DNA of 38,839 bases from Candidatus Poribacteria bacterium (GTDB taxonomy: Bacteria > Poribacteria > WGA-4E > WGA-3G), in NCBI GenBank assembly GCA_009843785.1, contig VYCT01000140.1, forward strand, positions 1-38,839, written 5' to 3'. This document shows positions 5,048 through 26,034 of the stretch, one piece after another. Numbering within the stretch: position 1 is the first letter of the stretch; every line of letters begins with the position of its first letter. Under the pieces are notes generated by a model that made no database searches, was not told the origin of the DNA, and was given only the letters and a program-made list of their open reading frames with translations. The translations under genes and the position numbers were made by a program.

Positions 5048-5071
5048 ATTGTTTCAAAGTATACGGAGCAC

Positions 5072-5776: not shown

Positions 5777-5850
5777 CTATGATTCGCCTTTTCTGTTAGG
5801 ATGTTCCAAACGTTCTTAGGCAACGTCTGGTCGATCCACTTACGAATAGC

Positions 5851-6126
5851 TTACGCTTTCTTTAAGATAGTTTCGACTTCAGCATGTGGACGTGGAATTA
5901 CATGAACAGAAACAACTTCGCCGACACGTGCAGCGGCTTCAGCCCCCGCATCCGTTGCGGCTTTCACAGCACCGACATCACCACGCACCAAGACGGTCAC
6001 GTAACCGCCACCGACTTGTTCGTAACCGACGAGTTGGACATTCGCCGCTTTCACCATTGCATCAGCAGCTTCAATACTCCCAACCAAGCCTCTCGTTTCA
6101 ACTAAACCCAATGCTTCTCCGGTCAT
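5851..6126 (-). CDS. BMC-H microcompartment shell protein (PduA/EutM/CcmK type)
   Basis: 91 residues, a single BMC domain of normal length. It starts with [20 protein letters not shown], continues with [20 protein letters not shown] and [20 protein letters not shown], and ends with a [10 protein letters not shown] segment. This is the full signature of the hexameric tile that forms microcompartment facets and their central pores. ATG 6126 is preceded by AGGAGG (14 nt away, with a GGAAG in between). It is the first gene of a three-gene unit with pduL and a flavoprotein-like gene, behind the promoter at 6234-6262. No pentamer (BMC-P) or aldehyde dehydrogenase is present in the window, so vertex proteins and the signature enzyme must be encoded elsewhere. 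Confidence 0.96.
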
Positions 6127-8998: not shown

Positions 8999-10255
8999 CT
9001 ACGGATCTACGACAGTGCCCATGAAGAGTACAGTTTTTGTCTCGTTATCACGAATCGCGAAGAAGAAAGGTCTGTTTGCCATGAACGCGGGTGGCGCGCT
9101 GGTTGCGCGAATCCCGACACTGGTTACTGCTGCGGCTTCAGTGCCTTCTTCATTGACTTCGACGACGGCTTTATGGAGCACTTCTCCGATATACAAGTTT
9201 TTACCCAAAGCCTCTAAATCTGCCATCTGACTGAAATCTGCAAGCCCCGGTGCAAACGCGATACCCATACCGAGTGATTGCAGCGGGTTGTTAAGCGTTT
9301 TTTCATATTCCAACTTAAATTTAGGCATGCTGAGGAATATTTCTTGTTCGCGAAACTGCGACACCCAACGCTCCCAATTCTCAGTGTTTAAACCATCTAA
9401 GAAGGTGTTGATATCAGATTCAGGATAGGGAAGGAAGATGTACATGCTCATCCGCCCATCGCCGTACGGAAGGCTAATCGCTTGGAACTTTGCTTCATAG
9501 TTTTCGTAGTAAGGATAATCACCCGTTCTTGTCATCATCGGTATCTGTTTTTCATCACCGGTTGCGAGATAAAAAGTTCCGTCGCGCGTGCGAGAAGGGT
9601 CGAATTCTGTCTGCCACGTTCCTTTGAAGTAGATGGCGTTAATGAGAAATAACACCATATCCAGATTGATTTCATCAAGGATTTTTGTAATTTTGCCGTT
9701 GGTATTGGTGTTTACCCACTGGTTAATTGTTGGTAGCGTGTTTGGGTCGGTGAAATCGAGCGTTGAGACCTCCGCTCCGAAAAATTCGGTGTTTCGCTGC
9801 AGGAAATCCTGCTTGAACGGAACATCTTGGCGTGCCCAGAGTGAATTTGCAATCGTGAGTATAACTTTCGGGTCTGCTACTTGAAGTGCTTGACGTAAGC
9901 CTGCATAGCCGGGGTTTATCGCTTCGGAGTCTAACTGTTGTAGGTGCAGCGTATTCGTCATCGCTTGCTCGGTTTCACCGGAGGCTCCGTTTAACGTCAT
10001 TGCCAAAGCGATAGAAATACTGAGTGGTGAGATAAAAATATTTTTATCTTTCTCACTTTTACGAATTTCATTGAACAGATCAAAACCGAATTGCGTATTT
10101 GCCGTGACGACGTTTGTATCAATAGAAACAGTTCCAGGCGCGTCTCGTCCCTCATCACCAAAGATAGCACCAAGATTATTACATCCAGCAAATATTAGCG
10201 AAACCAGGCACATCAAGCATAGAAAAGATTTCTCACTTGTCTGTTGCTTATACAT
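8999..10255 (-). CDS. Lipoprotein serpin (serine/cysteine protease inhibitor)
   Basis: 418 residues. The N-terminus is a lipoprotein signal with lipobox IFAGC (Cys25). The rest is a complete serpin: NAIYFKGTWQTEFDPSRT and PFFFAIRDNETKTVLFMGTV are classic family blocks. The reactive-centre hinge at 369-378 (EEGTEAAAVT) has the small residues needed for strand insertion, so it looks inhibitory. By standard numbering P1-P1' is Thr385-Ser386 with Arg383 at P3, so the target specificity is open (a Thr at P1 would suit elastase- or subtilisin-like enzymes; a cut after Arg383 would be trypsin-like). It probably sits on the outer or inner membrane and protects the envelope from proteases. It follows msrP by 27 bp. 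Confidence 0.93.
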   Translation of the reverse strand: MYKQQTSEKSFLCLMCLVSLIFAGCNNLGAIFGDEGRDAPGTVSIDTNVVTANTQFGFDLFNEIRKSEKDKNIFISPLSISIALAMTLNGASGETEQAMTNTLHLQQLDSEAINPGYAGLRQALQVADPKVILTIANSLWARQDVPFKQDFLQRNTEFFGAEVSTLDFTDPNTLPTINQWVNTNTNGKITKILDEINLDMVLFLINAIYFKGTWQTEFDPSRTRDGTFYLATGDEKQIPMMTRTGDYPYYENYEAKFQAISLPYGDGRMSMYIFLPYPESDINTFLDGLNTENWERWVSQFREQEIFLSMPKFKLEYEKTLNNPLQSLGMGIAFAPGLADFSQMADLEALGKNLYIGEVLHKAVVEVNEEGTEAAAVTSVGIRATSAPPAFMANRPFFFAIRDNETKTVLFMGTVVDP

Positions 10256-10282
10256 TTATTTTCTCCGCTTCAAGAGATCGTT

Positions 10283-11248
10283 TTACCTTTCGTAAAGGTG
10301 CGCGACAGCATCACCATAGCCGTTGTAAATCAATGTCGGATGTCTTTCCCTTGAGCCAATCATCCACTCAGTGGCTTGTGACCAGCGCGGGTGCGGGACA
10401 TTCGGATTGACGTTCGCTTCAAAGTCGTATTCTCTTGGAAGGATAATATTCCAAAAGTTTCGAGGTTTTTTGTCGGTGAGTTCAATGCTGACAATCGATT
10501 TGATACTCTTAAATCCGTATTTCCATGGTACAATCAACCGGATAGGTGCACCGTGTTGTGGCGGCAAAATATGCCCATAGATACCAACGACTAACAGTGT
10601 TAGATCGTTCATAGCTTCCGCGAGTGTTAACCCTTCAAGATAGGGCCACGGCAAACGCGCATCGTGTTGATGCGGTGCTACGTCAGGATCGAAAAATGTC
10701 AGCATACTGACATATTTTGCATCGGCTTTCGGTTGAACTCTCTCAAGCAGTGCTTTCATAGGGAAACCGATCCATGGCACTACCATCGCCCAAGTTTCAA
10801 CACAGCGGAAGCGATAGATGCGTTCTTCAAGAGGCATCATCTTAATTAAGTCATCTACATCTAAGGTCATCGGTTTTTCGACGAGCCCAGATATTTCAAT
10901 CTCCCAGGGGCGTGTTTTAAATCTTTCCACTCTTTTCCAGACGGTGCTTTTGGATTGCGTAAACTCGTAGTAATTGTTATAGGTCGCAGCAATCACTTCG
11001 TCGGTCATCTGTCTTTCTACGGTGAAGTTCGCGTTTTTTTCTGCCGCAAGTGTTTGCGCTCGGAACGGTGCTAACTGTTTTTCAAGCGCACTGTTTTGCG
11101 CACAGGCGTTTGAAGTGGAAAACAATAGGGTGCCCGCACTTGCCAATCCCAAATCTTTGATAAATTTTCGGCGGTTGATGTAATCTGATTCAGGTGTTAC
11201 CTGATTTTCGGGGATTTCCCATCCTTTTGGAATCTTAATGTACGCCAT
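10283..11248 (-). CDS. msrP: Protein-methionine-sulfoxide reductase catalytic subunit MsrP
   Basis: 321 residues. MsrP is a periplasmic molybdopterin enzyme that repairs oxidised methionines in envelope proteins. A Tat signal (RRKFIK at 26-31 followed by LGLASAGTLLFS) is preceded by a 25-residue n-region as in E. coli YedY. The molybdenum-ligating Cys149 lies in YRFRCVETWAMVVPWIGFP, and GAPIRLIVPWKYGFKSIKSI and the C-terminal NVPHPRWSQATE are family blocks. The start has a good SD (CGGAGG, 9 nt). It is the first gene of a five-gene operon behind the promoter at 11358-11386. The usual heme membrane partner MsrQ is not adjacent, so the electron donor must be encoded elsewhere or be different. 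Confidence 0.95.
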   Translation of the reverse strand: MAYIKIPKGWEIPENQVTPESDYINRRKFIKDLGLASAGTLLFSTSNACAQNSALEKQLAPFRAQTLAAEKNANFTVERQMTDEVIAATYNNYYEFTQSKSTVWKRVERFKTRPWEIEISGLVEKPMTLDVDDLIKMMPLEERIYRFRCVETWAMVVPWIGFPMKALLERVQPKADAKYVSMLTFFDPDVAPHQHDARLPWPYLEGLTLAEAMNDLTLLVVGIYGHILPPQHGAPIRLIVPWKYGFKSIKSIVSIELTDKKPRNFWNIILPREYDFEANVNPNVPHPRWSQATEWMIGSRERHPTLIYNGYGDAVAHLYER

Positions 11249-11641: not shown

Positions 11642-12082
11642 ATGTTGCGAAAACATCGGCAAGTTCTTATCTTACTCGTAGGGCTACTGTACGTCTATTC
11701 GGTGTGCCCATTCCTCTGTGCGACTTTTGAACAAAAGTTCTGTCACGACGCGCCTCAAGAAGTACTGAGCGAAGATGCTGAAGCCCGCGCAATCTGCTGC
11801 CGGAGTACTCAAACAGGCACGGCGGGTGAAACCGAAACGCCATTAGAAAGTGGTAAGCCGTGTTGTGCAACTGATTTGGAACTTGTGCTTCCAGACATCA
11901 GAGACAACATCCCCGAATTCCGTGAATTAATCGGACAGTCTCTGGTCTTGATTCTTCCTACCTCGGCGACTTTACCCGTTGCCCCCGAAGAATCTTTTAA
12001 GACTTCTTCCAGCCCTTTAGTTTCTACACTTTTCCCCGATCATCCTCTAACCCGTAGAGGACCTCCATTTGCGCAGTGCTAA
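11642..12082 (+). CDS. Exported Cys-rich small protein, first gene of the efflux cassette
   Basis: 146 residues, no family recognised. The N-terminus has a basic start and a hydrophobic segment (VLILLVGLLYVYSVCPFLCA), so it is exported or anchored. The following region is Cys-rich: Cys at about 22, 26, 34, and pairs CC at about 57-58 and 79-80 (AICCRSTQ and GKPCCAT), plus one at the extreme C-terminus (FAQC). Pairs of adjacent cysteines before a Pro/Ser-rich tail suggest thiol-dependent metal binding, which fits its position as the leading gene of a heavy-metal efflux operon. It lies 61 bp downstream of a strong promoter, and the next gene follows after 181 bp. Function as a metal sensor or carrier is inference. 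Confidence 0.7.
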   Translation: MLRKHRQVLILLVGLLYVYSVCPFLCATFEQKFCHDAPQEVLSEDAEARAICCRSTQTGTAGETETPLESGKPCCATDLELVLPDIRDNIPEFRELIGQSLVLILPTSATLPVAPEESFKTSSSPLVSTLFPDHPLTRRGPPFAQC

Positions 12083-12263: not shown

Positions 12264-13310
12264 ATGAAAATGCGTTTGCTTTTACACGCGATACTACTCA
12301 ATTGGGTTTTTATTTCTTTCGGATTCGCACAAGAAAGCTGTCCTGCGTGAAGCAATCCTGTCTTGCCGCCGAGCGGGATAGGTGAAGTCAGTTTGGCTTC
12401 AAAAGAGATAAATCAATTTCGAGTCAATGTCAATATGTTGGTCTCCCCTGATGCCCAAGGTGGGCATCTTGAAACACGAGGACTTTCGCCAACAGGTGAA
12501 GTTGTGGACGCGCCTTTACATAGGCACCACGTAGCATTAAGCACTTACCGGACGGATATTGGCTTGCAATACTTGCTGAGCGATCGGTGGATATTGCAGG
12601 CGAACATTCCGTATGCAGTCAAAAATCAGGAAGCCAATATTGAGTGGATTGACCCAGTGAGTCCTGAAGAGGAACAAGCCATTTTACGGAGTAGGGACAT
12701 CCATCATCGAGATGAAACCTATGCTGGACTCGCTGATTCAGATCTGTTTTTAGGGTATACATTTCGTGGCCTCTTTAAAATGGATGACATTTTATTTGCC
12801 CGGTTCGGTACAACGATTCCAATCGGCAAAACAGAGGAAAACCCGTGGAAACTTGGCGATGAAGGTCTTAAACACCTCCATATCCAGTTTGGTACGGGCA
12901 CCTTTAACCCGATTGCCAATTTGCAGTACAGTCTACCGCTCTATCAAGGTCTGACGCTCACTGCTTCGACACGGGGGACGTTTCCGGTCTATGAAAATAG
13001 CAAAACTTATCGAGGACCAGTGGAATTAACCTATACGGCTGGCTTTAGGTATCGCCTCTCCGATTGGTTTTCGTTTAACGGAAACTACCTCGGATTTTAT
13101 CAATCCGCTGCTGCTTGGGCTGGGGAGCGCGATATTAATACTGGGCTGCGTTACACTATGGCAGCACTGGGTATGTCCTTGGCAATACCCAATGACATTT
13201 CCGTGACCGCTAACGTCATGTTTCCACTGACGCAAGATACCCTATATGATGAAGGCGATGCAATTGAATTTGGTACTTTGGTTTCTTTAGCGACATCGTA
13301 TACATTTTGA
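12264..13310 (+). CDS. Outer-membrane barrel protein with in-frame TGA (candidate selenoprotein)
   Basis: Reading from ATG 12264 gives a signal peptide (MKMRLLLHAILLNWVFISFG, then FAQ), then ESCPA-TGA-SNPVLPPSGIG, then an uninterrupted 319-codon beta-barrel-like sequence ending in Phe (SLATSYTF), typical of outer-membrane proteins. The TGA is at 12348-12350 (codon 29), three residues after Cys26, so readthrough would give CxxU. The same gene uses TGA as its true stop. If translation began after the TGA (TTG 12363 is the nearest candidate, with no SD), the protein would lose its signal peptide, which makes no sense for a barrel. A hairpin at 12357-12382 fits a bacterial SECIS. Alternatives are a nonsense mutation of a Cys codon (TGC/TGT) or an assembly error. 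Its neighbours suggest a role in metal export. Confidence 0.7.
12357..12382 (+). promoter_or_regulatory. Hairpin resembling a bacterial SECIS element after the in-frame TGA
   Basis: Six nt after the TGA, CCTGTC (12357-12362) pairs with GATAGG (12377-12382) including one G-U. A TTG bulge follows, then CCGC (12366-12369) pairs with GCGG (12373-12376) around a CGA loop. The apical loop starts 19 nt after the TGA and has a G in its first two positions, as the published bacterial SECIS model asks (loop about 16-37 nt away, stem of at least 4 bp). Such hairpins can arise by chance. Confidence 0.5.
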
Positions 13311-13374: not shown

Positions 13375-14004
13375 ATGAAAATGAAATTGACGCGGCGAAT
13401 CGTCGCAGCTTTCTTAGCAATTCCAACCGTGTTACTACTCGTAATCTTTTCGCTGAATGCAGAAGACGCTCACAAGGCGCATGAAGGTCATCAACACGGC
13501 GATCAGGAAGCCGCCACTGACAAAGTACGTTGCGCGGTTGATGGTATGATGATGAAACCTTCAGCAATGATCAAAGTTGAACAGGCCGGAAAAGCCTACT
13601 ATTTCTGTAACAAGATGCAGGCAGAGATGTTCAAGGCAAATCCAGATAAGTACCTCCAAACAATTTCAGTCGGAAATTTGACATTTGATCTCAACGTGCT
13701 AACGACAGATGCGTACAAGATGATGATGTCTCACATGGGAATGGAGGGCATGATAAAAACCGACGAGATTAAGGGAAAGACGCACTATTTCAGTATATAC
13801 CCGACGCATGATCACGGTGAGATTGCGTTAGGTGATGTTAAACTTGCCATCCAGGTTACCAATACTGAAGGGGAGACGAAGATGGCATTGCTGAAATATA
13901 GCAAAATGATGCGGACCTACGAAGGGTTCATTACGATGCCAAAAGGTACCGAACATGAGGTCCGCGTTCGCGTGACGACCCCAGCTGTCAAGATTTCATT
14001 GTAG
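13375..14004 (+). CDS. Exported YHS-domain heavy-metal-binding protein
   Basis: 209 residues from ATG 13375, chosen because GGGAGAG lies 6-8 nt upstream and the signal peptide (TRRIVAAFLAIPTVLLLVIF) then starts at the N-terminus. After a His-rich segment (HKAHEGHQHGD) comes a YHS domain at about 42-90: VRCAVDGMMMKPSAMIKVEQ, then AYYFCNKMQAEMFKANPDKY, with the two conserved cysteines. A second, Met/His-rich domain follows (MMMSHMGMEGM; YPTHDHGEIALGDVKLAIQV), resembling a beta-sandwich of the YtkA type. YHS domains occur in copper and heavy-metal transport proteins. It is encoded 64 bp after the barrel gene and presumably buffers or delivers metal to the pump in the periplasm. Confidence 0.8.
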   Translation: MKMKLTRRIVAAFLAIPTVLLLVIFSLNAEDAHKAHEGHQHGDQEAATDKVRCAVDGMMMKPSAMIKVEQAGKAYYFCNKMQAEMFKANPDKYLQTISVGNLTFDLNVLTTDAYKMMMSHMGMEGMIKTDEIKGKTHYFSIYPTHDHGEIALGDVKLAIQVTNTEGETKMALLKYSKMMRTYEGFITMPKGTEHEVRVRVTTPAVKISL

Positions 14005-14162: not shown

Positions 14163-15518
14163 ATGCGTGGAGTTAGTTTACTATACCAAATGGCGTTAGT
14201 TGTTGTCGGGAGTATGATAGTGTTAAATGTTCTGATGCCGAGAGAAGCACAAGGGGTGATCCAAGAAGCATCAACGCCAGAGCAAACTACCGATGTGACA
14301 ACTCTATTTGCTGAAACGCTTGAGCTGCCGCGCCTCATTCAGGTTGCCGTTGAACGCAGCCCAAAAGTGAGTGCCGCAAAGGCGCGGTGGCAGGCGACAA
14401 TTGAACAGTACCCACAAGTGACAGCGTTGCCCGATCCGATGTTCATGTACGGCTATTACATGCGAAGCGTAGAGACGAGAGTTGGTCCTCAACGCCATCG
14501 GATTAGTTTTTCACAAGCATTTCCATATCCCGGTACCCTTGAGGCAGCCGGAGAGGTTGTCAAAAAGGCGGTTGAGATTGAGCGCGTGAAGCATGAACAG
14601 GTAATCCGTGATCTCATCGTTGGGCTGAAACTGAGTTACCACGAATTGGCGTATCTTCAACGAGCGGTCGAACTGACGCGGCAAAATCATGAATTAATAG
14701 CCTCCATTCTCGCGATTGCGACCACACGCTATGCCGAAGGGAAAACGACACTCAATGATGTCCTGAAAGCACAAAGCCAACTCGCGCAGTTGGAATATGA
14801 TCTTGTCCTGTTAGAGGAATTGCAGCACGTTGAACAGGCAAATATCAACGGGATGCTGTCGGTGCCTTCAGCAACGTCGTTGGGTATGACAGTGCCTATT
14901 CCTTATGAACCGCTTGATGTAGGATTGGCTGATATAGAGAAACAGGCGTTAGTAAAACGACAAGAGTTGCAAATTGCGGCGTTGAGCATCGAAAAAGCCA
15001 CTGAAGGGATTGCACTTGCTGAACTCCAAACCAAGCCCATGCTTAAGTTTGACTTAATGACAATAGAAACGGGCAAAGCTTTGATGTTCGACACACCCGG
15101 CAGTGGTAAAAACCCGTTTAGCATCGGTGTTGGTGTGACAATTCCGTGGTCAAGTTTGAAGAACAGCAGCAAAGTTCGCGAGGCGCAGCAAAATCGTGAG
15201 GCTGTCACAGCGAACAGGCACGCTCTGGAGGATGAAACGAGGGTTACCCTTCGGAAAATTTATTTTCGTCTTGAGAACGCGCGACGGCTTGTCGAACTCT
15301 ATGAAACCACACTTATTCCGCAAGCGGGTGCTGCTGTTGAGGTCGCTGAGACGTGGCATCAGGAAGGTCCCAAGAGCATTGCGGGATTTCTGGAGACGCA
15401 GAGCGTTTGGTTGAACTTTAATCTCGCCCGGCTACGTGCGATTGCGGACTATCAACAGAATGTCACTCGGCTGGAGCAATTGGTTGGAGGGAAGATTGAT
15501 GATTCGCACGTTGAATAG
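14163..15518 (+). CDS. TolC-type outer-membrane efflux protein 1
   Basis: 451 residues with a signal peptide. It is an outer membrane factor of the CusC/TolC family: LPRLIQVAVERSPKVSAAKA opens the first coiled-coil half, VGPQRHRISFSQAFPYPGTL is the typical membrane-strand turn, and a second, parallel half begins near IEKQALVKRQELQIAALSIE. Such proteins form trimers that span the outer membrane and the periplasm and connect to RND pumps through adaptors. The start has a perfect SD (AAGGAGG, 6 nt from ATG). The gene overlaps the second TolC-type gene by 20 bp. Length is normal for the family. Confidence 0.9.
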   Translation: MRGVSLLYQMALVVVGSMIVLNVLMPREAQGVIQEASTPEQTTDVTTLFAETLELPRLIQVAVERSPKVSAAKARWQATIEQYPQVTALPDPMFMYGYYMRSVETRVGPQRHRISFSQAFPYPGTLEAAGEVVKKAVEIERVKHEQVIRDLIVGLKLSYHELAYLQRAVELTRQNHELIASILAIATTRYAEGKTTLNDVLKAQSQLAQLEYDLVLLEELQHVEQANINGMLSVPSATSLGMTVPIPYEPLDVGLADIEKQALVKRQELQIAALSIEKATEGIALAELQTKPMLKFDLMTIETGKALMFDTPGSGKNPFSIGVGVTIPWSSLKNSSKVREAQQNREAVTANRHALEDETRVTLRKIYFRLENARRLVELYETTLIPQAGAAVEVAETWHQEGPKSIAGFLETQSVWLNFNLARLRAIADYQQNVTRLEQLVGGKIDDSHVE

Positions 15519-17148
15519 TTTTCAGTTTTCAGTAGACAACCGGCGACTGAAAAAAAATCTGTGTGAGCGGATTTTCGTACCGACAACCATTAAAATCGGT
15601 CTCATCATGCTCACTGTTCTGATAAGTGGGTGTGCAAAGCATCGACTCGAAACGTACCAAGAATTGCGTGATACTAAAATACAACGACCTGCCTATTACT
15701 ATACGGAAGTGGAAAAAAAGATTTCTAATACTGAAAGCGATCCGATCGTGGAGCCAGACCAGTTTCTCAGTGAAATTGAAGCAAAGGTGTTGAGGTACCA
15801 GAAACAGTGGCAAGCCCAATTGGAAAGTGAAACACCGATGCCAAATCTGTTTTACGATCTTTCAACAGACACCATGAAGGCACATCGGCAATTGGCATCG
15901 TCACCTGAAGCCGCAAGAGCCCGGCTTGCTGAACCTATTACGTTGGAGCTCCTTGTGGCACTTGGATATGAATGGAGTCCGGGGTTGAAATCTGCCCGTG
16001 AAAAAATTCGGGCGATACTGGAGCAATATCCACAAGCTGTCTACTTAGAGAATGTGTTACGTCAGTATAACGCTTTCACGAAACAACTTGATACGAAAGT
16101 TGGACCGATGCGCCATAAAGAGATGATGGCAATGGAGTTTCCGTTTCCAGGTACGTTAGCGTTGAAAGGACAGGTCATCACCGAAGATGTGCTAATTGCC
16201 CAGAAAGAGTTTGAAATTGCTCTGCGCGATCTGGTAACCGAAATCAAGTTAGCTTACTACGATTATCTTTTTGTCGTTGAGGCGACCCGTATTAACGAAG
16301 AGAATCAGAAATTACTGCAGCAGATGATTGCAATTGCCCAAACGAAGTTTCGTGTCGGACGAGGCAAATATTCAAACGTCATTATGGCACAAGTGGAGTT
16401 ATCGAAGTTGGCGAATGTGATTATTACACTTGAACAACAACGGGAAACTATTATTGCGCGTCTTAATACGTTATTGAACACTTCAGCAGATTTGCCGTTA
16501 GGCATTCCTGGACCAGTTGAAGAGGAACGTGTTATACCTACTTTAGCTGAGTTGTATGCGTTAGCGGTTCAGAAACGTCAAGAAATCCAAAAACAGAAGT
16601 TGGCAATTAGTAAAATGGGTTTGGTTGTGGAAATGGCAAAACAGATGACATATCCTGATCCGACCCTCGGGGCAAGCTACTTTGAAAACCGGAGTATGCC
16701 AGACTTGAAACACACGCAAAAAATGCCTATGACTTTTATGGCGCAGCGCACATTAAATCCAACAAATACAGCGTGGTTCGGCCACCGAAACTCATACATC
16801 CGTGAAGTGAATGTAAAAATTGAAGCGATAGAGCATCGGATTGAAGAACTTGAGAGCCAGCTCCGTTTTGTCGTGAAAAAGCATCATTTTGGAATGGAGA
16901 CCGCAAATCGGAGCATTCGCCTCTATCGTCAGACGCTGCTTCCGCAAGCACAGCAGGCGTTGGATGCCGCGAATACAGCCTATCAAGCAGCACAAATTGA
17001 CTTTTTGAGTTTTCTTGATGCCCAGCGCACTTTATTAAATTTGAGGATTGAAGAGGAGCGAGCATTGCGCGATTATCACCAACATCTTACGCAGTTAGAA
17101 CAGGCAGTTGGCATGATATTGCCTAAACACCCACTGATCCAAAAGTAG
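15499..17148 (+). CDS. TolC-type outer-membrane efflux lipoprotein 2
   Basis: 549 residues from ATG 15499, which has GGAGGG 7 nt upstream and overlaps the end of the preceding gene, so the two are translationally coupled. A hydrophobic run ends in lipobox LISGC, so it is a lipidated outer membrane factor like CusC. An unusually long n-region of about 35 residues precedes it, part of it encoded by a heptamer repeat. The body is a paralogue of the upstream protein (VGPMRHKEMMAMEFPFPGTL against VGPQRHRISFSQAFPYPG), but with about 90 extra residues before the first barrel half. The two halves are seen at about 135-340 and 360-549. Two outer membrane factors for one pump is unusual; they may form a mixed or alternative channel. 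Confidence 0.88.
   Translation: MIRTLNSFQFSVDNRRLKKNLCERIFVPTTIKIGLIMLTVLISGCAKHRLETYQELRDTKIQRPAYYYTEVEKKISNTESDPIVEPDQFLSEIEAKVLRYQKQWQAQLESETPMPNLFYDLSTDTMKAHRQLASSPEAARARLAEPITLELLVALGYEWSPGLKSAREKIRAILEQYPQAVYLENVLRQYNAFTKQLDTKVGPMRHKEMMAMEFPFPGTLALKGQVITEDVLIAQKEFEIALRDLVTEIKLAYYDYLFVVEATRINEENQKLLQQMIAIAQTKFRVGRGKYSNVIMAQVELSKLANVIITLEQQRETIIARLNTLLNTSADLPLGIPGPVEEERVIPTLAELYALAVQKRQEIQKQKLAISKMGLVVEMAKQMTYPDPTLGASYFENRSMPDLKHTQKMPMTFMAQRTLNPTNTAWFGHRNSYIREVNVKIEAIEHRIEELESQLRFVVKKHHFGMETANRSIRLYRQTLLPQAQQALDAANTAYQAAQIDFLSFLDAQRTLLNLRIEEERALRDYHQHLTQLEQAVGMILPKHPLIQK
15519..15550. repeat. Heptamer repeat inside the coding start of the second TolC-type gene
   Basis: Units AGTTTTC, AGTTTTC, AGTAGAC, AACCGGC, GACTG run from just after the stop of the first TolC-type gene. 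They are in frame with the second and encode SFQFSVDNRRL in its n-region. The second half is the first in inverted orientation, as if the two arms of the intergenic element were joined directly. Confidence 0.5.
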
Positions 17149-17173: not shown

Positions 17174-19042
17174 ATGCCTAAAAATTTCTGCCTCGCAATT
17201 ACACTGATGATTACTGTGTTATTCATATTCAGTTGTAGTCAGCAAGAGAAAGCTGAAATGGAGCAGCCTGTTAGTGAAAAACGTGAAACGATACCAGCGG
17301 ACACGTCCGGCATGGATGAACACGCCGCTCATACACCAATTGAAAAACGTGAAATGACATCAGAAAGCACGATGTCCGGCATGGATGAACACGCTGGCCA
17401 TGCCGCAATGGTAACATCCTCAGATGGAGAAAAAACAATTCGGTTTTGGACGTGTGTTATGCATCCCACAGTCAAAATGCCGGAGCCTGGTGGTTGTCCA
17501 GTTTGTAAGATGGATCTGATTCCTATTTACGAAGGTTCAGGTCTGGAACTCACTGAACAACAGAAGGCACTGATTCCAGTACGCACTGAACCCGTCGCTT
17601 TTCGCGAAGTTTCGCGTGAAATTCGGACGGTTGGTATTCTGGATTATAACGAAACCCGTATGGCTTACGCTTCAACGCGAATTTCTGGGTGGATTGAGAA
17701 CTTACATATTGATTTCACGGGTATCAACGTGCGTGAAGGCGATGAGCTCTTGTCCATCTACAGTCCGGAATTGGTCACGGCACAAGAAGAATATTTGACG
17801 GCACTTAAAAGTATTGAGGAACTTCAAAATACAGAATACGCGGAACTGCGCAGGTCCGTTGAACAGACCGTTACCGCTGCGAAATCCAAACTTGAATTGT
17901 ATGGATTGACCTTAGATCAGATTGAAGATATTCGCAACCGTGGAGCAGTCAGTACGACCTTACCGCTCTTCGCACCGATGGCTGGGACTGTGGTTCACAT
18001 GAACGTCGCGCAAGGTCAACACGTGAACAAGGGGATGAATCTTTACCGTATTGCCGACCTTAAGAGTCTATGGATTATGGCGGACGTTTACGAATATGAA
18101 CTGCCGTGGATTTACATGGGGCAGGCGGTTGAAATGACGACGCAATCGATGCCTGGGCTAACTTTTCCGGGCAAAGTCACCTACATTTATCCATTCTTTG
18201 ATACGCGAACGCGAACGCAGAAAGTCCAGATAGAAGTCTCCAATCCGACCGGGCGCCTCCGTCCAGGGATGTATGTGACGCTTCAAATAAAACCGACACT
18301 TGCGGAAATCTATACCCAGGGAGCCATCTCGAAAGCACCGTATGCATGCCCAATGCATCCATGGGTTACTTCTGAACATCCTACTGAATGTGAAATATGT
18401 GGCATGGATCTGGAACCGACGCACTCCGATGTCGTTGGGACTGAATCGGTATCTGACACAGAGGGGAAGTGGGTTTGCCCGATGCATCCTGAAGTGCGAT
18501 CTGACGAATTTGGCGAATGTTCTATTTGCGGCATGGATCTCGTCGAAAAACAGCCAACAACTGAAACCCGCGCACATTCTCACGGACATCAGCACGCGCA
18601 CGCGCCTTCCGTTCACGCGGATCAGCCACCGTTGATTTTCAAATACGTGTGTCCTGATCATCCTGATGAATATGCAACCGTGCCTGGACTCTGTCCACAT
18701 GATGGGAAGTCTCTTGTTATGACAGGTGAAGTTCTAACTGTACCGAAGAGTGCAATTATTGACACCGGTTTACGGAAAATAGTCTTCGTGGATCGCGGTG
18801 AATCGGGTTATGAACAGATTGAGGTCGAGGTGGGCCCCGAAGCTTGGGGAACATCGGGCGACTCAGAAACCAAACGCCGATACTATCCTATTGTGAGCGG
18901 ACTTACGCCTGGCGATAGGGTTGTCACACATGGCAACTTCCTGATAGATTCGCAGACGCAATTAACGGGGTCCGCGTCCGGTGCTTATGGCGGGGCACTC
19001 GGCGGTGGAGAAGAATCAAAAACCCCTGTCCATCAACATTAA
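17174..19042 (+). CDS. cusB: CusB-type RND adaptor with four heavy-metal-binding modules
   Basis: 622 residues, much longer than a standard adaptor (about 400). After a lipoprotein-like start (lipobox IFSCS, Cys near 22) a Met/His segment (SGMDEHAAH and SGMDEHAGH) is duplicated. A first Cys/His module at about 92-120 (CVMHPTVKMPEPGGCPVCKM) precedes the adaptor core: membrane-fusion hairpin (about 180-260), lipoyl/barrel part (about 265-385, LRPGMYVTLQIKP). Three further modules follow: 390-418 (CPMHPWV...CEICGMDL), 433-459 (CPMHPEV...CSICGMDL) and 490-515 (CPDHPDEY...CPHDGK), with a His-rich linker (HSHGHQHAHAP) before the last. They interrupt the C-terminal membrane-proximal domain (VLTVPKSAIIDTGLRKIVFV). 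Such modules are known in CusB-like proteins and probably capture metal for the pump. SD AAGGAG lies 8 nt from the start. Confidence 0.92.
   Translation: MPKNFCLAITLMITVLFIFSCSQQEKAEMEQPVSEKRETIPADTSGMDEHAAHTPIEKREMTSESTMSGMDEHAGHAAMVTSSDGEKTIRFWTCVMHPTVKMPEPGGCPVCKMDLIPIYEGSGLELTEQQKALIPVRTEPVAFREVSREIRTVGILDYNETRMAYASTRISGWIENLHIDFTGINVREGDELLSIYSPELVTAQEEYLTALKSIEELQNTEYAELRRSVEQTVTAAKSKLELYGLTLDQIEDIRNRGAVSTTLPLFAPMAGTVVHMNVAQGQHVNKGMNLYRIADLKSLWIMADVYEYELPWIYMGQAVEMTTQSMPGLTFPGKVTYIYPFFDTRTRTQKVQIEVSNPTGRLRPGMYVTLQIKPTLAEIYTQGAISKAPYACPMHPWVTSEHPTECEICGMDLEPTHSDVVGTESVSDTEGKWVCPMHPEVRSDEFGECSICGMDLVEKQPTTETRAHSHGHQHAHAPSVHADQPPLIFKYVCPDHPDEYATVPGLCPHDGKSLVMTGEVLTVPKSAIIDTGLRKIVFVDRGESGYEQIEVEVGPEAWGTSGDSETKRRYYPIVSGLTPGDRVVTHGNFLIDSQTQLTGSASGAYGGALGGGEESKTPVHQH
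17306..17394 (+). repeat. 20-bp direct repeat encoding Met/His motif
   Basis: TCCGGCATGGATGAACACGC occurs at 17306-17325 and again at 17375-17394, encoding SGMDEHA twice in the N-terminal Met/His-rich part of the adaptor. It is a recent in-frame duplication of a likely metal-binding motif. Confidence 0.8.
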
Positions 19043-19164: not shown

Positions 19165-22100
19165 ATGATTAACCGAATTATTGAAATCTGTATGAAAAAC
19201 CGCCTATTGGTATTGGTTATTTTTATATTTGTGACAATGGCGGGTTGGTGGGCGTTGAACCGGACACCCATTGATGCTATGCCGGACATCGGCGAAAACC
19301 AAGTGATTGTCTTCGCGGATTGGCCCGGGCGAAGCCCACGAGATATTGAGGACCAAGTTATCTATCCATTGAGCATTACTATGCTCGGAATTCCTGATGT
19401 CAAAGATGTTCGATCGACTTCAATGTTTAGTTTTGGTTACATTAACATTATCTTTAAAGATGATGTCGATTTCTATTGGGCACGTACACGCGTATTGGAG
19501 CGAATGAATCTTGCGCAAAAGGATATGCCGGAGGGTGTTGTACCGGTCCTCGGGCCCGATGCAACGGGTGTCGGACAGGTATTTTGGTATACCGTTGAGA
19601 ATGGATATTATTGCCCGAATCATCCGACAGAACGCTATGCCGAGCCGGGCACTTGTCCAGAAGATGGAGAGCCGCTTATTGCCTCCAATCTGGAGCTTCA
19701 TGAACTTCGGACGCTCCAAGACTGGACGGTTCGTTACTATCTCGCCTCTGCTGATGGTGTTTCCGAGGTTGCCTCGGTCGGTGGATACGTCAAACAGTAT
19801 CAGATTGACATCGATCCAAACACTTTATTGGCGTATAACGTGCCGTTATCAATGGTTTACAACGCCGTTCGAGGGAGCAACCTTGATGTTGGTGCCAAGG
19901 TGATTGAGGAAGGCGGAATGGAATTCCTGATTCGGGGTTTGGGGTTTATCAAAAGCATCGCCGACATAGAAAACATCGTTGTCAAGGAACATGACGGCGT
20001 ACCTATCTACGTCAAAAACCTTGGAACCGTCAGCGAAGGGCCCGACTTTCGCCGCGGTGCTTTAGACAAGGCAGGCATCCCCGCAACCGGTGGTGTGGTG
20101 CTAATGCGGTACGGTGATAATCCACTGCGTGTGATTGAGAATGTCAAAGCGAAGATAGCGGAACTCACGCCTGGGCTTCCATCAGGGGTCCGAATTGTCC
20201 CGTTCTATGACCGGAGCCATCTTATTCACCGGGCAACAGATACGCTAAAGGAAACGCTGACAGAGGAAATCATCGTCGCTGCAGCTGTTATCCTGCTTTT
20301 CTTGGGGCAAGTTTCAAGTAGTTTGCTAATAGCACTTGTTTTACCGATGGGGGTTCTGCTTTCGTTTGTGGGCATGCGGATTATTGGTTTACCATCGAAC
20401 ATCATGTCAATGGGTGGCATCGCCATAGCGATTGGCGTGATGGTGGATGCCGGTATTGTGATGACAGAAAATATCACGCGACATTTACGGGAACCGCACG
20501 CCGGTGAAAGCAAACTTCAGGTTGCAACCCGTGCTGCTAAAGAGGTGGGACCACCTATTTTTTTCGCGATGCTCATCGTTATTGTTGCCTTTATACCTGT
20601 CTTTTCTCTTACCGGCCAAGCAGGTAAACTCTTTAAACCGCTTGCGTATACAAAAACTTTTGCTATGCTCGGTGCAGCCCTCATAGCGATTAGTTTAGTA
20701 CCAGTTTTAGCGTCGTTTCTACTCCCGGACCCAACCCGTACTCGGACAAGTAGAATTTCCAAAATAGTAGCGCGGTTCTTTGCGATACTCAGCTGGCCCC
20801 TGAGAAAATTAGCCGATGGGATTACGTGGGTACTCAGAACCCTCTATCGTCCGATTATTCAGTTGGCTGTAAAGAATATTTGGACGAAACTCGCTGTTGT
20901 TGTCTTGGCGGTACTTATTTTTGCCGCAAGTATACCTTTGACCCCTTTCTATAAAAATATTGGACAAGAATTCATGCCGCCACTTAACGAAGGGGCGTTG
21001 CTATTTATGCCGGTACTGCTTCCGGGTGCCTCGATTACGCAAGCAAAAGATGTCATGGCGAAACAGGATTTGATTATGAATCGGTTTCCAGAAGTTGCAC
21101 TTGTCGTTGGGAAATTGGGGCGCGCGACAACAGCAACCGACCCCGCTCCAATTGGCATGTTTGAAACCATTGTCAATATAATTGACCCAGCAGAATGGCC
21201 CCGACGCGCGATTAAGCGCGATTCAACAGCGGAGCTTGTGTCCGTTCTTGTCCAACGTTTAGCACGCGACGGGCTGATCAGTGAGGAACATGTGAGTCAT
21301 ATTGGGGCAGATTTTTTTCGTGATATTGTTACCGCGGCCGTAAAACGGTTTGATACCTTAGCGACAACGTATCATAACTCTTATCTGTCAGTTGACGAGC
21401 GCGAAAGCCTCTATCGCATCTGGTTCTTACGCGTCCTTTTGGAGGAACTTCTCACCGAAGTGCGGACAGCGGGAATGGGATTGGCGCACGTCAAAATTGG
21501 AGAATCTGAGACTGAAGTGAAACTGCATCAGATCGCCGAAGAACTTGAACCTACTCTCAAGCATAAGACTTACTTCCGTACCAAAAACCGCAACGAACTC
21601 ATTACCGAGTTGACAGAGGCTACCCGAATACCGGGGGTTTCGCCGATTATGACGCAGCCCATACGCAATCGCGTTGATATGCTCGCAACAGGTATACAAA
21701 CCCCAATCGGGATCAAAGTATTTGGTAAAGACCTCGCGCAGATTGAAGAGATTGCAGTCCGGATTGAGCAAGAACTCCTTAAGCTTGACGGTGCACAGGG
21801 GCCCTATGCGGAGCGCATTGGAAATAAGCCGTACCTTGAGTTTCACATTAACAGAGAAGAAGCCGCGCGCTACGGTATCCAAATCAAGACAGTGCAACAA
21901 ATCATCATGACAGCAATCGGTGGCATGAATCTAACTTATACCGTTGAGGGACGGGAGCGGTTTCCGATTCGTATCCGTTATATGAGAGAATTGCGGGATA
22001 ATATTGAAGCACTGAAACGTGTCCTCGTGCCAGCACCAAAGGGACTGCATATTCCGCTTGAGCAACTCGTGACCATCGAAAGACGACCGGGACCGGCGAA

Positions 22101-22833
22101 GATCGCGAGCGAAAATACGTTACTCTTTTCCCGCGTCTTTTGTGATGTGGATGTTGATACCATTGGACTCGTTGACTTCGTCACGTTAGCCCAAAAGACA
22201 CTTGATGAAAAAATTAAGCCGACGCTACCGCAAGGCTACTTCTACGCTTTTAGCGGACAGTACGAAGCTGAATTGGAAGCCCGCAATCGATTAACGATTG
22301 TTGTACCCGTATGTATCGCAGCTATTTTTATATTGCTATATCTCCAGTTCAAGTCGCCTTCTGCGATGTTTTCAATCTTTCTTGCGATCCCCTTTGCCTT
22401 TATCGGAGGTATGTGGATGCAGTGGTTGATGGCGTACGTGCCGGAGGCACTCGGCGGTGGTTACGCCATTAAATACAGTACAGCGGTGTGGGTGGGGTAT
22501 ATAGCCCTGTTTGGCATAGCCGTTGAAGACGGAATCGTTTTAATTGAATACCTATTGGAACGCGTCCGGGGCGGTGAATCTATTGATGACGCCGTGATCA
22601 ATGCTGGATTGTTGCGCGTCCGACCTATCATCATGACCACAGCAACTACGATTTTGGCGTTATTACCAATCATGTTAGCAGAAATTAGTACCACTACTGG
22701 TGCGGAGTTGATGAAGCCTATCGCGGTCCCTACCTTCGGCGGGATGGTCTCGGCAACGATGGCTAATCTTATTTTAGCACCGGTGTTATTCTCGCTTTTC
22801 TATCCTGTTGAACGCTGGATTCGCCAGCGGTAG
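19165..22833 (+). CDS. cusA: CusA/CzcA-type heavy-metal RND efflux pump with an inserted metal-binding module
   Basis: 1222 residues, longer than CusA (about 1047). It is a proton-driven RND pump that moves metal ions from periplasm to outside through the adaptor and TolC-type channel. The N-terminal helix, TPIDAMPDIGENQVIVFADW, the porter domain and two 6-helix bundles are all visible. Helix 4 has IAIGVMVDAGIVMTENI with the acidic residue of the proton relay; the second-bundle counterpart is FGIAVEDGIVLIEYLLERV. Residues about 147-172 hold an inserted Cys/His module (Cys150 and Cys164 in CPNHPTERYAEPGTCPEDGE) in the first porter region, just before LRTLQDWTVRYYL. About 100 extra residues near 690-790 are also unusual. 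No SD is visible, because a heptamer repeat ends directly upstream; the start is thus somewhat uncertain. Confidence 0.93.
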   Translation: MINRIIEICMKNRLLVLVIFIFVTMAGWWALNRTPIDAMPDIGENQVIVFADWPGRSPRDIEDQVIYPLSITMLGIPDVKDVRSTSMFSFGYINIIFKDDVDFYWARTRVLERMNLAQKDMPEGVVPVLGPDATGVGQVFWYTVENGYYCPNHPTERYAEPGTCPEDGEPLIASNLELHELRTLQDWTVRYYLASADGVSEVASVGGYVKQYQIDIDPNTLLAYNVPLSMVYNAVRGSNLDVGAKVIEEGGMEFLIRGLGFIKSIADIENIVVKEHDGVPIYVKNLGTVSEGPDFRRGALDKAGIPATGGVVLMRYGDNPLRVIENVKAKIAELTPGLPSGVRIVPFYDRSHLIHRATDTLKETLTEEIIVAAAVILLFLGQVSSSLLIALVLPMGVLLSFVGMRIIGLPSNIMSMGGIAIAIGVMVDAGIVMTENITRHLREPHAGESKLQVATRAAKEVGPPIFFAMLIVIVAFIPVFSLTGQAGKLFKPLAYTKTFAMLGAALIAISLVPVLASFLLPDPTRTRTSRISKIVARFFAILSWPLRKLADGITWVLRTLYRPIIQLAVKNIWTKLAVVVLAVLIFAASIPLTPFYKNIGQEFMPPLNEGALLFMPVLLPGASITQAKDVMAKQDLIMNRFPEVALVVGKLGRATTATDPAPIGMFETIVNIIDPAEWPRRAIKRDSTAELVSVLVQRLARDGLISEEHVSHIGADFFRDIVTAAVKRFDTLATTYHNSYLSVDERESLYRIWFLRVLLEELLTEVRTAGMGLAHVKIGESETEVKLHQIAEELEPTLKHKTYFRTKNRNELITELTEATRIPGVSPIMTQPIRNRVDMLATGIQTPIGIKVFGKDLAQIEEIAVRIEQELLKLDGAQGPYAERIGNKPYLEFHINREEAARYGIQIKTVQQIIMTAIGGMNLTYTVEGRERFPIRIRYMRELRDNIEALKRVLVPAPKGLHIPLEQLVTIERRPGPAKIASENTLLFSRVFCDVDVDTIGLVDFVTLAQKTLDEKIKPTLPQGYFYAFSGQYEAELEARNRLTIVVPVCIAAIFILLYLQFKSPSAMFSIFLAIPFAFIGGMWMQWLMAYVPEALGGGYAIKYSTAVWVGYIALFGIAVEDGIVLIEYLLERVRGGESIDDAVINAGLLRVRPIIMTTATTILALLPIMLAEISTTTGAELMKPIAVPTFGGMVSATMANLILAPVLFSLFYPVERWIRQR

Positions 22834-22879: not shown

Positions 22880-23494
22880 ATGAAACTTCTAACGACATTC
22901 AGCGTCTGTATATTTGTCAGTCTTATGGGGTTCCCAGCTGTTAGTACCGCGTCTGAATTTGAAAAGTATTTACATGTCGCAAAAGGCGGTGTCGTAAGCA
23001 CCGGTCGCGGGTTAGCCGTCACTAACGCCGAACTTGAAACCGCACTCACCGAAGAATTCTCTATCGGATTTCAATTAACACCTACCCTTCGGTTCTCAGT
23101 TCCGTTCGGTAGTTCCATTGTCGATACTCGCGGACGTAACGCGGATGTCTTACCCTTTGGGATGTTGAGTGTTGAGACTGTTGGCACGATGCTGACACTG
23201 AGGGGACGGGGGAAATGGGCACCCTTTATTGGACTCGGTGCAAATTTCTATTCTTTTACTGAACACTTCGCTACGCCAGCGAATATTCAGAATACTTTTG
23301 GGGCGGAAGCATCCACTGGACTCAGTGTAAGACTTATTGATAGCATCTTTGAGGTCGCTCAGTTAAATGGATCATTTGGCTATCAGTTCAGTTTTTTGAG
23401 ACCGAAGGTGAGCGTACCAGCCAGACCGGATGTTGACGTGTTATCGTTAAACCGTCATAACATCACCTTCCGATTGGAGATTTTGGGATTGTAA
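22880..23494 (+). CDS. Small outer-membrane barrel-like protein
   Basis: 204 residues from ATG 22880. GGAGG lies 4 nt upstream and a signal peptide (MKLLTTFSVCIFVSLMGFPA) begins there; the open frame upstream overlaps the pump and is not used. The mature part alternates hydrophobic and polar residues and resembles 8-strand barrels such as OmpW (ALTEEFSIGFQLTPTLRFSV, WAPFIGLGANFYSF). The C-terminus ends ITFRLEILGL, lacking a final Phe. It lies 46 bp after the pump gene and may be the last member of the cassette. Role unknown. Confidence 0.72.
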   Translation: MKLLTTFSVCIFVSLMGFPAVSTASEFEKYLHVAKGGVVSTGRGLAVTNAELETALTEEFSIGFQLTPTLRFSVPFGSSIVDTRGRNADVLPFGMLSVETVGTMLTLRGRGKWAPFIGLGANFYSFTEHFATPANIQNTFGAEASTGLSVRLIDSIFEVAQLNGSFGYQFSFLRPKVSVPARPDVDVLSLNRHNITFRLEILGL

Positions 23495-23566: not shown

Positions 23567-24559
23567 ATGTTTTTCCGAATCTATTGCTATCGGCGCGTAA
23601 GCGTTCTATTAACATTCGTGTTTTTAATGGTATGTGTACCACTGTTCAGTAATGCGCAAGATGCTGAATTTCCGGTGCAGAGACTGGCGGCTATTTTTCC
23701 GGAAGCGAAGAGATTTGTTCAAAAGCGTCCCGTGCTTACACCGGATCAAATTGCGTCAATTGAAAAGGACATCGCGAGTAAACTCCGAACGGCCGACCTG
23801 AAACCGATTTTTTACATCCCGATCAATGACGCGAGTAAGCCGATAGGGCTGATCCTGTTCGTTAGTGTAGAGGGCCGGAACGGTATTATTGAAGGGGCTG
23901 TTGCGCTAAACATGCGCGGAAAAGTCGTAAAAGTGGAGGTCTATGCGCACAAGGAATCTGAAGCCATTGCCAGCGCGGAATTTCTCAAACAGTTCACCGG
24001 TATGGGTATAGGCGACGCTTTCAAAGTTGGCGAGGACGTTGCAGCTGCTGAAGCGCATGAAGACGCTTCAAACGCAGTCGCTCTAATGCCTAAAAAGACG
24101 TTGGTAATGAGTTATGCCCTCTTCCTCAAGCGGGAACAAAAACCAGAACCGGAAGAAATACCGGAGGCTGATGCACCAGAGGAGATGCCTGAAGATGAAG
24201 AAATACCTGAGGTTGAGGACTTGAAAGCCCTCATGATGTTGATGATAGATGACTATTTCGTGGTCGTTGACTACTTTGACGACAAGGCGGGCAAAGCGGA
24301 AGCCGTTGAAGCGGCGAAGCAACTCGCTAAATATGCAAAGAGCATCTCAAGTTTTGAACCGCCAAAGAACGCAGATCAAACAGAGGAATATGTCTATCTG
24401 CAAGACAAATTTAGCGATACACTCCTTAAATTTGCTGAAGCACTTCAAAAGGAAGGTATTTCTGATGGAACGCGTGAGCAATGGAACGCTATTGTTGAAT
24501 TAATCGATCAAGCACACCTCCGATTTAGCGAGGAGGAGATTGACTTGGACACATATTGA
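23567..24559 (+). CDS. Exported FMN_bind-like protein with acidic linker and helical tail
   Basis: 330 residues with a signal peptide (cleavage near SNAQ-DAE). Residues about 70-150 (KPIGLILFVSVEGRNGIIEG, then GKVVKVEVYAHKESEAIASA, FLKQFTGMG) resemble the FMN_bind domain of RnfG/NqrC, but the SGAT-type motif that takes covalent FMN was not found, so flavin attachment is doubtful. A linker rich in Glu, Pro and Asp (about 195-220) leads to a C-terminal four-helix-like region (about 222-325) reminiscent of cytochrome c-prime-like domains but without CxxCH. SD GAGGAGG lies 8 nt upstream. It is followed 44 bp later by the double VWA gene, perhaps in one unit. Function unknown. Confidence 0.55.
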   Translation: MFFRIYCYRRVSVLLTFVFLMVCVPLFSNAQDAEFPVQRLAAIFPEAKRFVQKRPVLTPDQIASIEKDIASKLRTADLKPIFYIPINDASKPIGLILFVSVEGRNGIIEGAVALNMRGKVVKVEVYAHKESEAIASAEFLKQFTGMGIGDAFKVGEDVAAAEAHEDASNAVALMPKKTLVMSYALFLKREQKPEPEEIPEADAPEEMPEDEEIPEVEDLKALMMLMIDDYFVVVDYFDDKAGKAEAVEAAKQLAKYAKSISSFEPPKNADQTEEYVYLQDKFSDTLLKFAEALQKEGISDGTREQWNAIVELIDQAHLRFSEEEIDLDTY

Positions 24560-24603: not shown

Positions 24604-26034
24604 ATGGCTTTTGTTAAGCAAGTTTTGGTTTGCAAACTGCCCCCCAAAATCTGGATATGCTGCTTGTGTGTGATGTGCGTATTGATGGGAATACTGCAAG
24701 CATCGGCGCAGGTCCGTCCGCCTCGACGAAAACAGAGAATATTGGTGGATCCGGGTGTGAAGAAGAAAGATACCCTCAAGGCAGATATCGGGGCGAGCCT
24801 CAAAGACATTGCGAAACGCGCAACGCAACACTCCGAACCCGCGAAAGTCGATGTCGTGTTCGTTGTTGATGTCAGTAAGCGGATGTTGGCACCTGTTGCT
24901 ATCCTTGAAAAGAGGCTTATTGATATGCTCGCTGTTATAGAGGCGCAAACGATGGACTATAGGTTCGCGTTCATAAGTTTTCAATCGGTGCGGGGAGAAC
25001 CGAAATACATATTTCATCAATGGTCATTTGACTACATCAGTATTGAGAACGCTTTGCGAGAGACGCGGGTTGAAGCCGATAACGCGGAGTCTGGATATGG
25101 GCTTGATGCAGTCGTAAAAGGTTTGAATGCGTTGGATTTCCGCGAGGGGGTTACGACACAATTTGTTGTGGTTAGTAATTCGCCGATGCGCACTTCGTGG
25201 ACAGAAGCAGATGCGAAAAGCAGAATTAGTGAACAGATCGTGAACTTATGCCGACAAAACAACGTGCAGCTCAACTTTATCGGTACAAGTGAGAAAACTC
25301 AGGCGGAACTGACTGACCGGACGAGCGGCAAGTGGTACCCGATTGATTCATATCAGCGGCGGATGGATGGACAACGGATCCAGAGTGGCGAAACAGTCGC
25401 CGATAAAGCACTGCTTCGAGTGGACGGCGTGTTTAAACGCATTGCTGAAAATTTAGTGCAGAGTGAACTCGGTAAAGTAGACATTGTGTTTGTCTTTGAT
25501 TACAGTCTGAGCATGGAACCTAAAACGGACGCTGCGTGTAATGGCTTGGATCTGATGGTCTCTGTGTTTAAGTCGGCGGGGTTAGATTATCGGTTGGGGA
25601 TTATTCGGTTTTGGGCAGCAGTCGGTGGTGGCGAAAGCACTATCGTCGTAACCAAGCCGCCGTTGGAGCCCGATCAGGTGAAGTCGATGTTTCGGCTCCC
25701 AAAATCCGGTGATGAACATCTGCTGGATGCCGTTATTGAAGGCGTACCGAAACTTCAGACGGAACAGGAACGCGACCTTGTGCTCATCATTGTCACGGAC
25801 GAAGCAACGAGCAAGCGTGCCGAAAAAGGGTATACAGCCGGGAAAGCGGTTTCAGTGTGCCGTGGGGCGCGAGCCAGAGTTTATGTCATCGGCGGTGTCA
25901 CCTCAATGAAAACTGGTTCCATTGGAGATGATTTCCAGCGGCAAGTCGCCCAACTTACTAAAGGTGAGCACTACATTATGCCGGGTGCGAGTGCGCCCGT
26001 GACCACGACAGGGGGCCCTGACCAGCGACGATAA
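24604..26034 (+). CDS. Exported protein with two von Willebrand A domains
   Basis: 476 residues. A hydrophobic signal (ICCLCVMCVLMGILQASAQ) exports or anchors it. The first VWA domain (about 80-275) has VDVVFVVDVSKRM: Asp89 and Ser91 but Arg instead of the second Ser, so its metal site (MIDAS) is degenerate. The second (about 290-460) has VDIVFVFDYSLSM: Asp299, Ser301 and Ser303 with later LIIVTDEATS, an intact MIDAS. VWA domains bind protein partners through a metal ion. It lies 44 bp after the FMN_bind-like gene and faces the convergent cyclase-fold gene. A degenerate plus an intact domain suggests division of roles; no pathway is known. Confidence 0.82.
   Translation: MAFVKQVLVCKLPPKIWICCLCVMCVLMGILQASAQVRPPRRKQRILVDPGVKKKDTLKADIGASLKDIAKRATQHSEPAKVDVVFVVDVSKRMLAPVAILEKRLIDMLAVIEAQTMDYRFAFISFQSVRGEPKYIFHQWSFDYISIENALRETRVEADNAESGYGLDAVVKGLNALDFREGVTTQFVVVSNSPMRTSWTEADAKSRISEQIVNLCRQNNVQLNFIGTSEKTQAELTDRTSGKWYPIDSYQRRMDGQRIQSGETVADKALLRVDGVFKRIAENLVQSELGKVDIVFVFDYSLSMEPKTDAACNGLDLMVSVFKSAGLDYRLGIIRFWAAVGGGESTIVVTKPPLEPDQVKSMFRLPKSGDEHLLDAVIEGVPKLQTEQERDLVLIIVTDEATSKRAEKGYTAGKAVSVCRGARARVYVIGGVTSMKTGSIGDDFQRQVAQLTKGEHYIMPGASAPVTTTGGPDQRR

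Follow-up and report, generated by a model that had tools for sequence, protein, structure and literature searches.

Selenoproteins of the outer membrane have been predicted before. The most complete selenoprotein list that we found covers 119 prokaryotic families (2026; PMC13188914), and the same source predicts two outer-membrane beta-barrels that contain selenocysteine (Sec): the GSU2204-family CxxCH-containing protein, an MtrB/PioB-family barrel whose name suggests electron-conduit barrels (NF041027), and the FCYXU type of TonB-dependent receptor, which carries a CxxU motif (NF049945; PMC13188914, PMC12013277). Two Sec residues spaced two apart (UxxU) occur in metal-binding NF041115, Prx-like and FmdB-like selenoproteins, which are listed as other families and folds, none of them described as an outer-membrane barrel (PMC13188914). 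The predicted Sec protein of the Geobacter ExtI/ExtKL cluster is a cytochrome, not a porin (PMC5877670). As for sponge symbionts, a metagenome study found SelA and SelB co-occurring in most symbiont bins, from various phyla (PMC5649159). A search of the open-access literature returned no paper with 'Poribacteria' and 'selenoprotein' together; earlier work elsewhere is possible.

Here we analyse a gene of Candidatus Poribacteria, labelled SecOMP in the present work, that apparently represents an undescribed family of outer-membrane selenoproteins. It lies in a window of 38,839 nucleotides, by which we mean the whole stretch of DNA analysed, corresponding to contig C251 of a 6.17-Mb Poribacteria MAG that is 97% complete. 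None of the families named in the list of 119 matches SecOMP (PMC13188914). It resembles NF041027 in being a predicted Sec-containing barrel but has no NCBIfam match, and CxxCH is absent from its barrel and found instead in a neighbouring protein in one of two operon layouts (layout B, described below). Similarly, it shares a predicted barrel with CxxU with NF049945, although the latter is a TonB receptor and SecOMP has no match to that family. A SecOMP paralogue with the motif UGAU has its two Sec residues spaced as in the UxxU proteins, and no homology to SecOMP is claimed for the Geobacter protein. The Phenol_MetA_deg proteins (PF13557) give a borderline match over the SecOMP barrel, and the distant relatives read in the phylum are without the Cys/Sec motif. 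At E<=0.01 SecOMP matched 0 NCBIfam families, and searches of PHROGs and of PDB sequences found no relative. The preliminary description of this DNA had spoken of an unfamiliar class of selenoprotein; outer-membrane barrel selenoproteins as such had already been predicted (PMC13188914), and it is the SecOMP family that appears new. A one-Sec/two-Sec family of a major sponge-symbiont phylum has seemingly been overlooked so far, because gene callers cut the gene at its UGA.

Table 1 Positions, within the window, of SecOMP, its recoding signals and the neighbouring genes
Feature	Coordinates	Strand	Remarks
Small Cys-rich membrane/periplasmic protein (CPFLC, CC, CC)	11642..12082	+	conserved directly upstream of SecOMP
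SecOMP selenoprotein gene	12264..13310	+	signal peptide and predicted outer-membrane beta-barrel; 348 aa, Sec is residue 29
Cys26 codon, first motif residue	12339..12341	+	second TGA (Sec) in the UGAU paralogue family
Sec codon TGA	12348..12350	+	residue 29; motif C26-P-A-U29-S-N-P; TGA in 66/66 distinct homologues reaching the codon
Hairpin 1	12357..12382	+	lower stem 12357-12362/12377-12382; bulge TTG 12363-12365; upper stem 12366-12369/12373-12376; loop CGA 12370-12372
Hairpin 2	12384..12400	+	GAAGTC-AGTTT-GGCTTC; likely SelB-binding SECIS core; missed in the preliminary description
YHS-domain, signal-bearing protein (layout A)	13375..14004	+	PF04945 29.7 bits, below cut-off 30.3
TolC-family outer-membrane efflux protein 1 (layout A)	14163..15518	+	PF02321 140 bits
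TolC-family outer-membrane efflux protein 2 (layout A)	15436..17148	+	PF02321 106 bits; true start probably near 15505
CusB-like adaptor (layout A)	17174..19042	+	PF16576, PF19335; four heavy-metal-binding domain stretches
CusA/CzcA-family RND metal efflux pump (layout A)	19165..22833	+	TIGR00914 939 bits
Small protein, unknown family, end of layout A cassette	22880..23494	+	
FMN-binding-domain (RnfG-like) protein, common to layouts A and B	23567..24559	+	PF04205 19.7 bits, below cut-off 22
VWA-domain protein, common to layouts A and B	24604..26034	+	PF00092 32.2 bits; synteny

The SecOMP frame opens with an ATG at 12264, meets a TGA at 12348-12350 and is then open up to its terminator, a TGA at 13308-13310. 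An in-frame TGA at exactly these coordinates, splitting a signal peptide from a barrel domain in an otherwise intact frame, had been reported in the preliminary description. Read with TGA as U, the translation begins MKMRLLLHAILLNWVFISFGFAQESCPAUSNPVLPP... and comprises a hydrophobic signal peptide, the motif stretch QESCPAUSNP and ~315 residues ending in SYTF. Standard ORF calling returned only a TTG-start ORF at 12363-13310. A mechanical scan of the window for other in-frame TGA candidates gave three matches. We assign a probability of about 0.93 to the reading that 12264-13310 is a functional selenoprotein gene in which the UGA at 12348-12350 is read as selenocysteine.

A six-frame search of the phylum located the SecOMP family in 67 genomes, and residue 29 was TGA throughout 92 loci and 66 distinct sequences (L067, which a contig end cuts before the codon, was excluded from this count). 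The TGA is reproducible: independent assemblies keep it, closed chromosomes such as OX639973.1 among them. Orthologues in the window's genus have exactly one internal TGA and the motif CPAU. A second set, ~50-60% identical, has two internal TGA codons and the two-Sec motif UGAU, and one copy from another genus reads CSAU. The host genome of the window itself carries a UGAU paralogue as well (contig C5); neither this copy nor the different operon layout of relatives figured in the preliminary description. The paralogue (L082, G000:C5, ~4400-5479, minus strand) has one more in-frame TGA, its third, at a site occupied by Trp in relatives (MMRW to MMRU), which could be a point mutation, an assembly error or beginning decay. 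On a maximum-likelihood tree the CPAU sequences form one clade with full support, CSAU falls separately, and the motif labels require two changes; residue 26 has therefore switched between Cys and Sec on at least two occasions, with Sec retained at residue 29 throughout. Cys of CPAU and CSAU thus aligns with Sec of UGAU at the first motif position, but none of the homologues reaching codon 29 (66 distinct sequences) has Cys there. Two Sec/Cys exchanges at one half of a motif whose other half is always Sec offer a natural experiment on selenium use.

The same comparison bears on whether the TGA could be a true stop, left by pseudogenization or sequencing error, with only a truncated barrel made from the TTG at 12363. 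Standard ORF calling yields just that product, and a few decayed copies do exist elsewhere (in G019, G028, G047 and G015). However, all 66 distinct sequences, drawn from many independent assemblies, share this TGA, the signal peptide ahead of it and the surrounding motif are conserved, and a conserved RNA element follows it. In addition, dN/dS is ~0.06-0.16 after the TGA and also <1 before it, there from few sites. We reject the pseudogene or sequencing-error reading, which we consider extremely improbable, on the retention of the TGA across assemblies and the low dN/dS; the conserved flanks and the dN/dS on both sides of the codon also uphold the earlier impression that the gene otherwise looks functional. 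The extra copies, fragmentary and apparently decaying, are at G019:C20, G028:C2:632590-633145, G047:C1:1198170-1198804 and G015:C41.

Outside the phylum, no homologues were found in ~300 other genomes, a profile search included, and none in plasmids. Distant relatives within the phylum (22-30% identity) have neither a Cys/Sec motif nor an internal TGA. SecOMP thus appears to have no close homologue beyond one order of Poribacteria, and an outer-membrane Sec protein conserved through that order is a testable target.

The host genome holds a complete set of Sec genes, with SelA, SelB, SelD and tRNA-Sec all scoring above their family cut-offs. Contig C234 carries selB (345.6 bits) followed directly by tRNA-Sec (78.1 bits), selA is on contig C335 (600.6 bits) and selD on contig C132 (361.5 bits; L167, G000:C132:36283-37206). 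The selD gene has one in-frame TGA of its own, in KCAGUASKL, at the usual place of the active-site Sec in Sec-containing SelD. A hairpin, GCTCC-GGG-GGAGC, comes after the selD TGA. Across the phylum, tRNA-Sec was detected in 73 of 85 genomes. Eight fragmented MAGs with a SecOMP gene gave no tRNA-Sec match, for which assembly gaps are the simplest reading because four of the eight hold selB above its cut-off. Collectively, the Sec machinery, the TGA kept in independent assemblies and the pairing of Cys and Sec in the alignment of motif residue 26 strongly support the original proposal of a CPAU selenoprotein, and we infer very strongly from these sequence comparisons that Sec is inserted at residue 29.

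The published model of the bacterial SECIS element has an apical loop of 3-9 nt with G in one of its first two positions, an upper stem of 4-16 bp, a UGA-to-loop spacing of 16-37 nt and an MFE <= -7.5 kcal/mol (PMC13188914, Fig. 2); the loop follows the pattern N1-G-[G/U]-N-N2, in which N1 and N2 pair (PMC13188914). Two hairpins follow the SecOMP TGA. The first, already noted in the preliminary description as 6+4 bp with a 3-nt bulge and a CGA loop, is exact in every detail, beginning six nt past the TGA with its loop 19 nt past it. Its conformity to the SECIS rules had been claimed as well: the stem of 4 bp, the loop of 3 nt, the spacing of 19 nt and the G of the window's CGA loop agree with the model, but the loop G is unconserved, many orthologues having CCA. 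The upper stem of hairpin 1 is paired in all 32 CPAU sequences, and many UGAU sequences have an alternative register. When the 39 nt after the TGA of CPAU orthologues were folded and compared with synonymous-codon shuffles, the mean z was ~-2.6 to -2.9, with 31 of 32 at p<=0.1, and this stretch ranked first among windows along the gene. The UGAU set gave a weaker signal in the same shuffle test (mean z ~-1; 10/34 at p<=0.1), and its consensus folding along the gene revealed structure only directly after the TGA (-11.5 kcal/mol vs ~0 in other windows). The post-TGA hairpin is not a product of chance. Codon choice is constrained over the same region: in codons 1-18 after the TGA, 89% of conserved residues are encoded by a single shared codon, compared with 74% elsewhere in the gene; from codon 6 after the TGA onward the figure is ~95%.

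Hairpin 2 covaries better than hairpin 1. Each of its six stem pairs holds in 65 or 66 of the 66 sequences, and compensatory changes run from C-G to U-A, A-U to G-C and U-G to U-A; together with the loop-closing pair, 99.0% of cells are paired, and there are 10 double changes vs 1.7 in shuffles. Helix-pairing and covariation scores exceeded those of all 500 shuffles and all slides. Hairpin 2 has a stem of 6-7 bp and a loop of 3-5 nt, and its loop, AGUUU or GGUUC, fits the N1-G-[G/U]-N-N2 pattern, and 65 of the 66 sequences have G where the model places it (AGTTT/GGTTC and related loops). This loop lies ~39-42 nt after the UGA, slightly beyond the usual 16-37 nt, whereas that of hairpin 1 is within the range. 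The MFE of the window's element is -15.5 kcal/mol, and all printed family members are at <= -9.8. When the genome was searched with a covariance model built on the full element, just two places were convincing, namely the two family members, and an Rfam search over the window gave no match. From these features we infer that SelB binds at hairpin 2, as the core of the element, and that hairpin 1 is a helix proximal to it. We propose that the UGA would be decoded as Sec by the genome's own SelA, SelB, SelD and tRNA-Sec, directed by this two-hairpin RNA directly downstream. If so, both UGA codons of the UGAU form, which are nine bases apart, would depend on one SECIS element. That the UGA might instead be read as another amino acid, or pass through leaky termination, is very unlikely: the genome encodes all of the Sec machinery, with a SelD of the Sec type; Cys and Sec replace each other at the other motif position; the loop of the hairpin downstream agrees with the SECIS pattern of bacteria; and TGA is also the normal terminator of 14 of the 66 family genes. 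A different genetic code was rejected because TGA also terminates family members.

SecOMP is likely to be an outer-membrane beta-barrel, as had been suggested at the outset. The assignment draws on the N-terminal hydrophobic segment ending in FGFA, the beta-strand pattern and the terminal Phe of the C-terminal SYTF. Its domain matches are borderline, with PF13557 scoring 22.0 and 21.8 bits vs a cut-off of 22. Among 23 members, PF13557 was detected in seven (E<=0.01), PF13505 likewise in seven and a faint TonB-barrel match in two. The AlphaFold2 model is mostly strands at low confidence (mean pLDDT 46.5). Among the invariant residues are GGH, HRH and HHR, the His in HLHIQFG, and the stretch QxSCxACSNP, in which U is printed as C. 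The CxxU/UxxU motif is located close to the N-terminus of the mature protein, probably on the periplasmic side.

We compared the gene neighbourhoods of 21 judgeable CPAU loci from other genomes. The small Cys-rich gene directly upstream (VCPxLC, CH, CC, CC) is present in nearly all CPAU loci; its product has no Pfam or NCBIfam match and no hidden TGA. In layout A, found in 13 of the 21 loci and, besides these, in the window, SecOMP is followed by the YHS gene, two TolC genes, CusB, CusA and a small protein, and then by the FMN-binding and VWA genes wherever the available sequence extends that far. The FMN-binding assignment is aided by a 68% identical homologue in L062 (PF04205 26.0 bits). In layout B (8/21), SecOMP is immediately followed by a His/Met-rich YtkA-like protein, the FMN-binding protein, a CxxCH-heme protein and the VWA protein. 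A UGAU copy in a sister genus (L084/L198) sits in the order small Cys-rich, YtkA, SecOMP, FMN, heme, VWA; most UGAU paralogues lie outside both layouts. Within layout A, L196 still has a short piece of the heme gene, left over between its FMN and VWA genes (15467-15628), and the Cus cassette is therefore probably the later arrival; the simplest history, judged from gene order, has layout B as the ancestral arrangement, part of which the cassette replaced. Since the sister genus also has the FMN/heme operon, the older association of SecOMP was probably with periplasmic redox genes, the link to metal efflux being later and partial. The placement of SecOMP mid-operon among metal-efflux genes, as first described, thus describes the window and 13 of the 21 loci, where CusBA and TolC follow, but not the eight with the FMN/heme operon instead. 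In L062:8209-9732 and its homologues we saw, by eye, a CxxCH heme motif joined to an apparent C-terminal beta-barrel (with an NF041762-like start), possibly a one-chain heme/barrel protein.

What the Cys/Sec pair does can be approached from these partners. In the mature barrel, the N-terminus just past the signal-peptide cleavage site would bear the C-P-A-U or U-G-A-U pair, which, on the periplasmic side of the barrel, may cycle between a selenolate state and a selenylsulfide or diselenide. Electrons would pass between the pair and its operon partners, or the pair would hold, together with them, a soft metal that is redox-active, for example Cu(I). These partners are the Cys-rich small protein, the FMN-binding, c-type-heme and His/Met-rich YtkA-like proteins, and YHS/CusBA in the layout of the window. 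We give such a redox-relay role about even odds against a rival in which SecOMP is likewise a selenoprotein but its Sec/Cys pair serves mainly as a ligand for soft metals (Cu, Ag, Hg), in a barrel that works with the CusBA pump to export metal or take it up. That rival, which we rate as possible at somewhat under even chances, accords with the YHS, HMBD-CusB, CusA and two TolC genes that follow in the window and its relatives, with the invariant barrel His positions (GGH, HRH, HHR, HLH), with the His/Met-rich YtkA-like partner and with several Sec proteins being thought to bind metal (PMC13188914). However, the Cus cassette is missing beside the gene in eight of the 21 loci and beside the UGAU paralogues, and the heme-gene remnant of L196 suggests that it came later. 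Moreover, the OEP domain (PF02321, TolC/CusC) has no match in the window protein or in family members. The same observations do not support the earlier picture, as it was worded, of an efflux channel with a metal-binding selenolate at its mouth. Returning to the redox relay, we advance only tentatively its most specific version, a novel selenium redox centre in the outer membrane of sponge symbionts, formed by an N-terminal UxxU (diselenide) or CxxU (selenylsulfide) pair of the barrel, coupled to periplasmic FMN and c-heme proteins and moving electrons or redox-active copper.

Two other regions of the window drew our attention. From the ORF list, positions 4310-6126 contain, by eye, bacterial microcompartment-like genes (a BMC shell protein and a PduL-like protein with a Cys-rich N-terminus). 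At 8999-11248, a bacterial serpin (PF00079, 415 bits) stands beside a molybdopterin oxidoreductase, and this arrangement is conserved upstream in many relatives.
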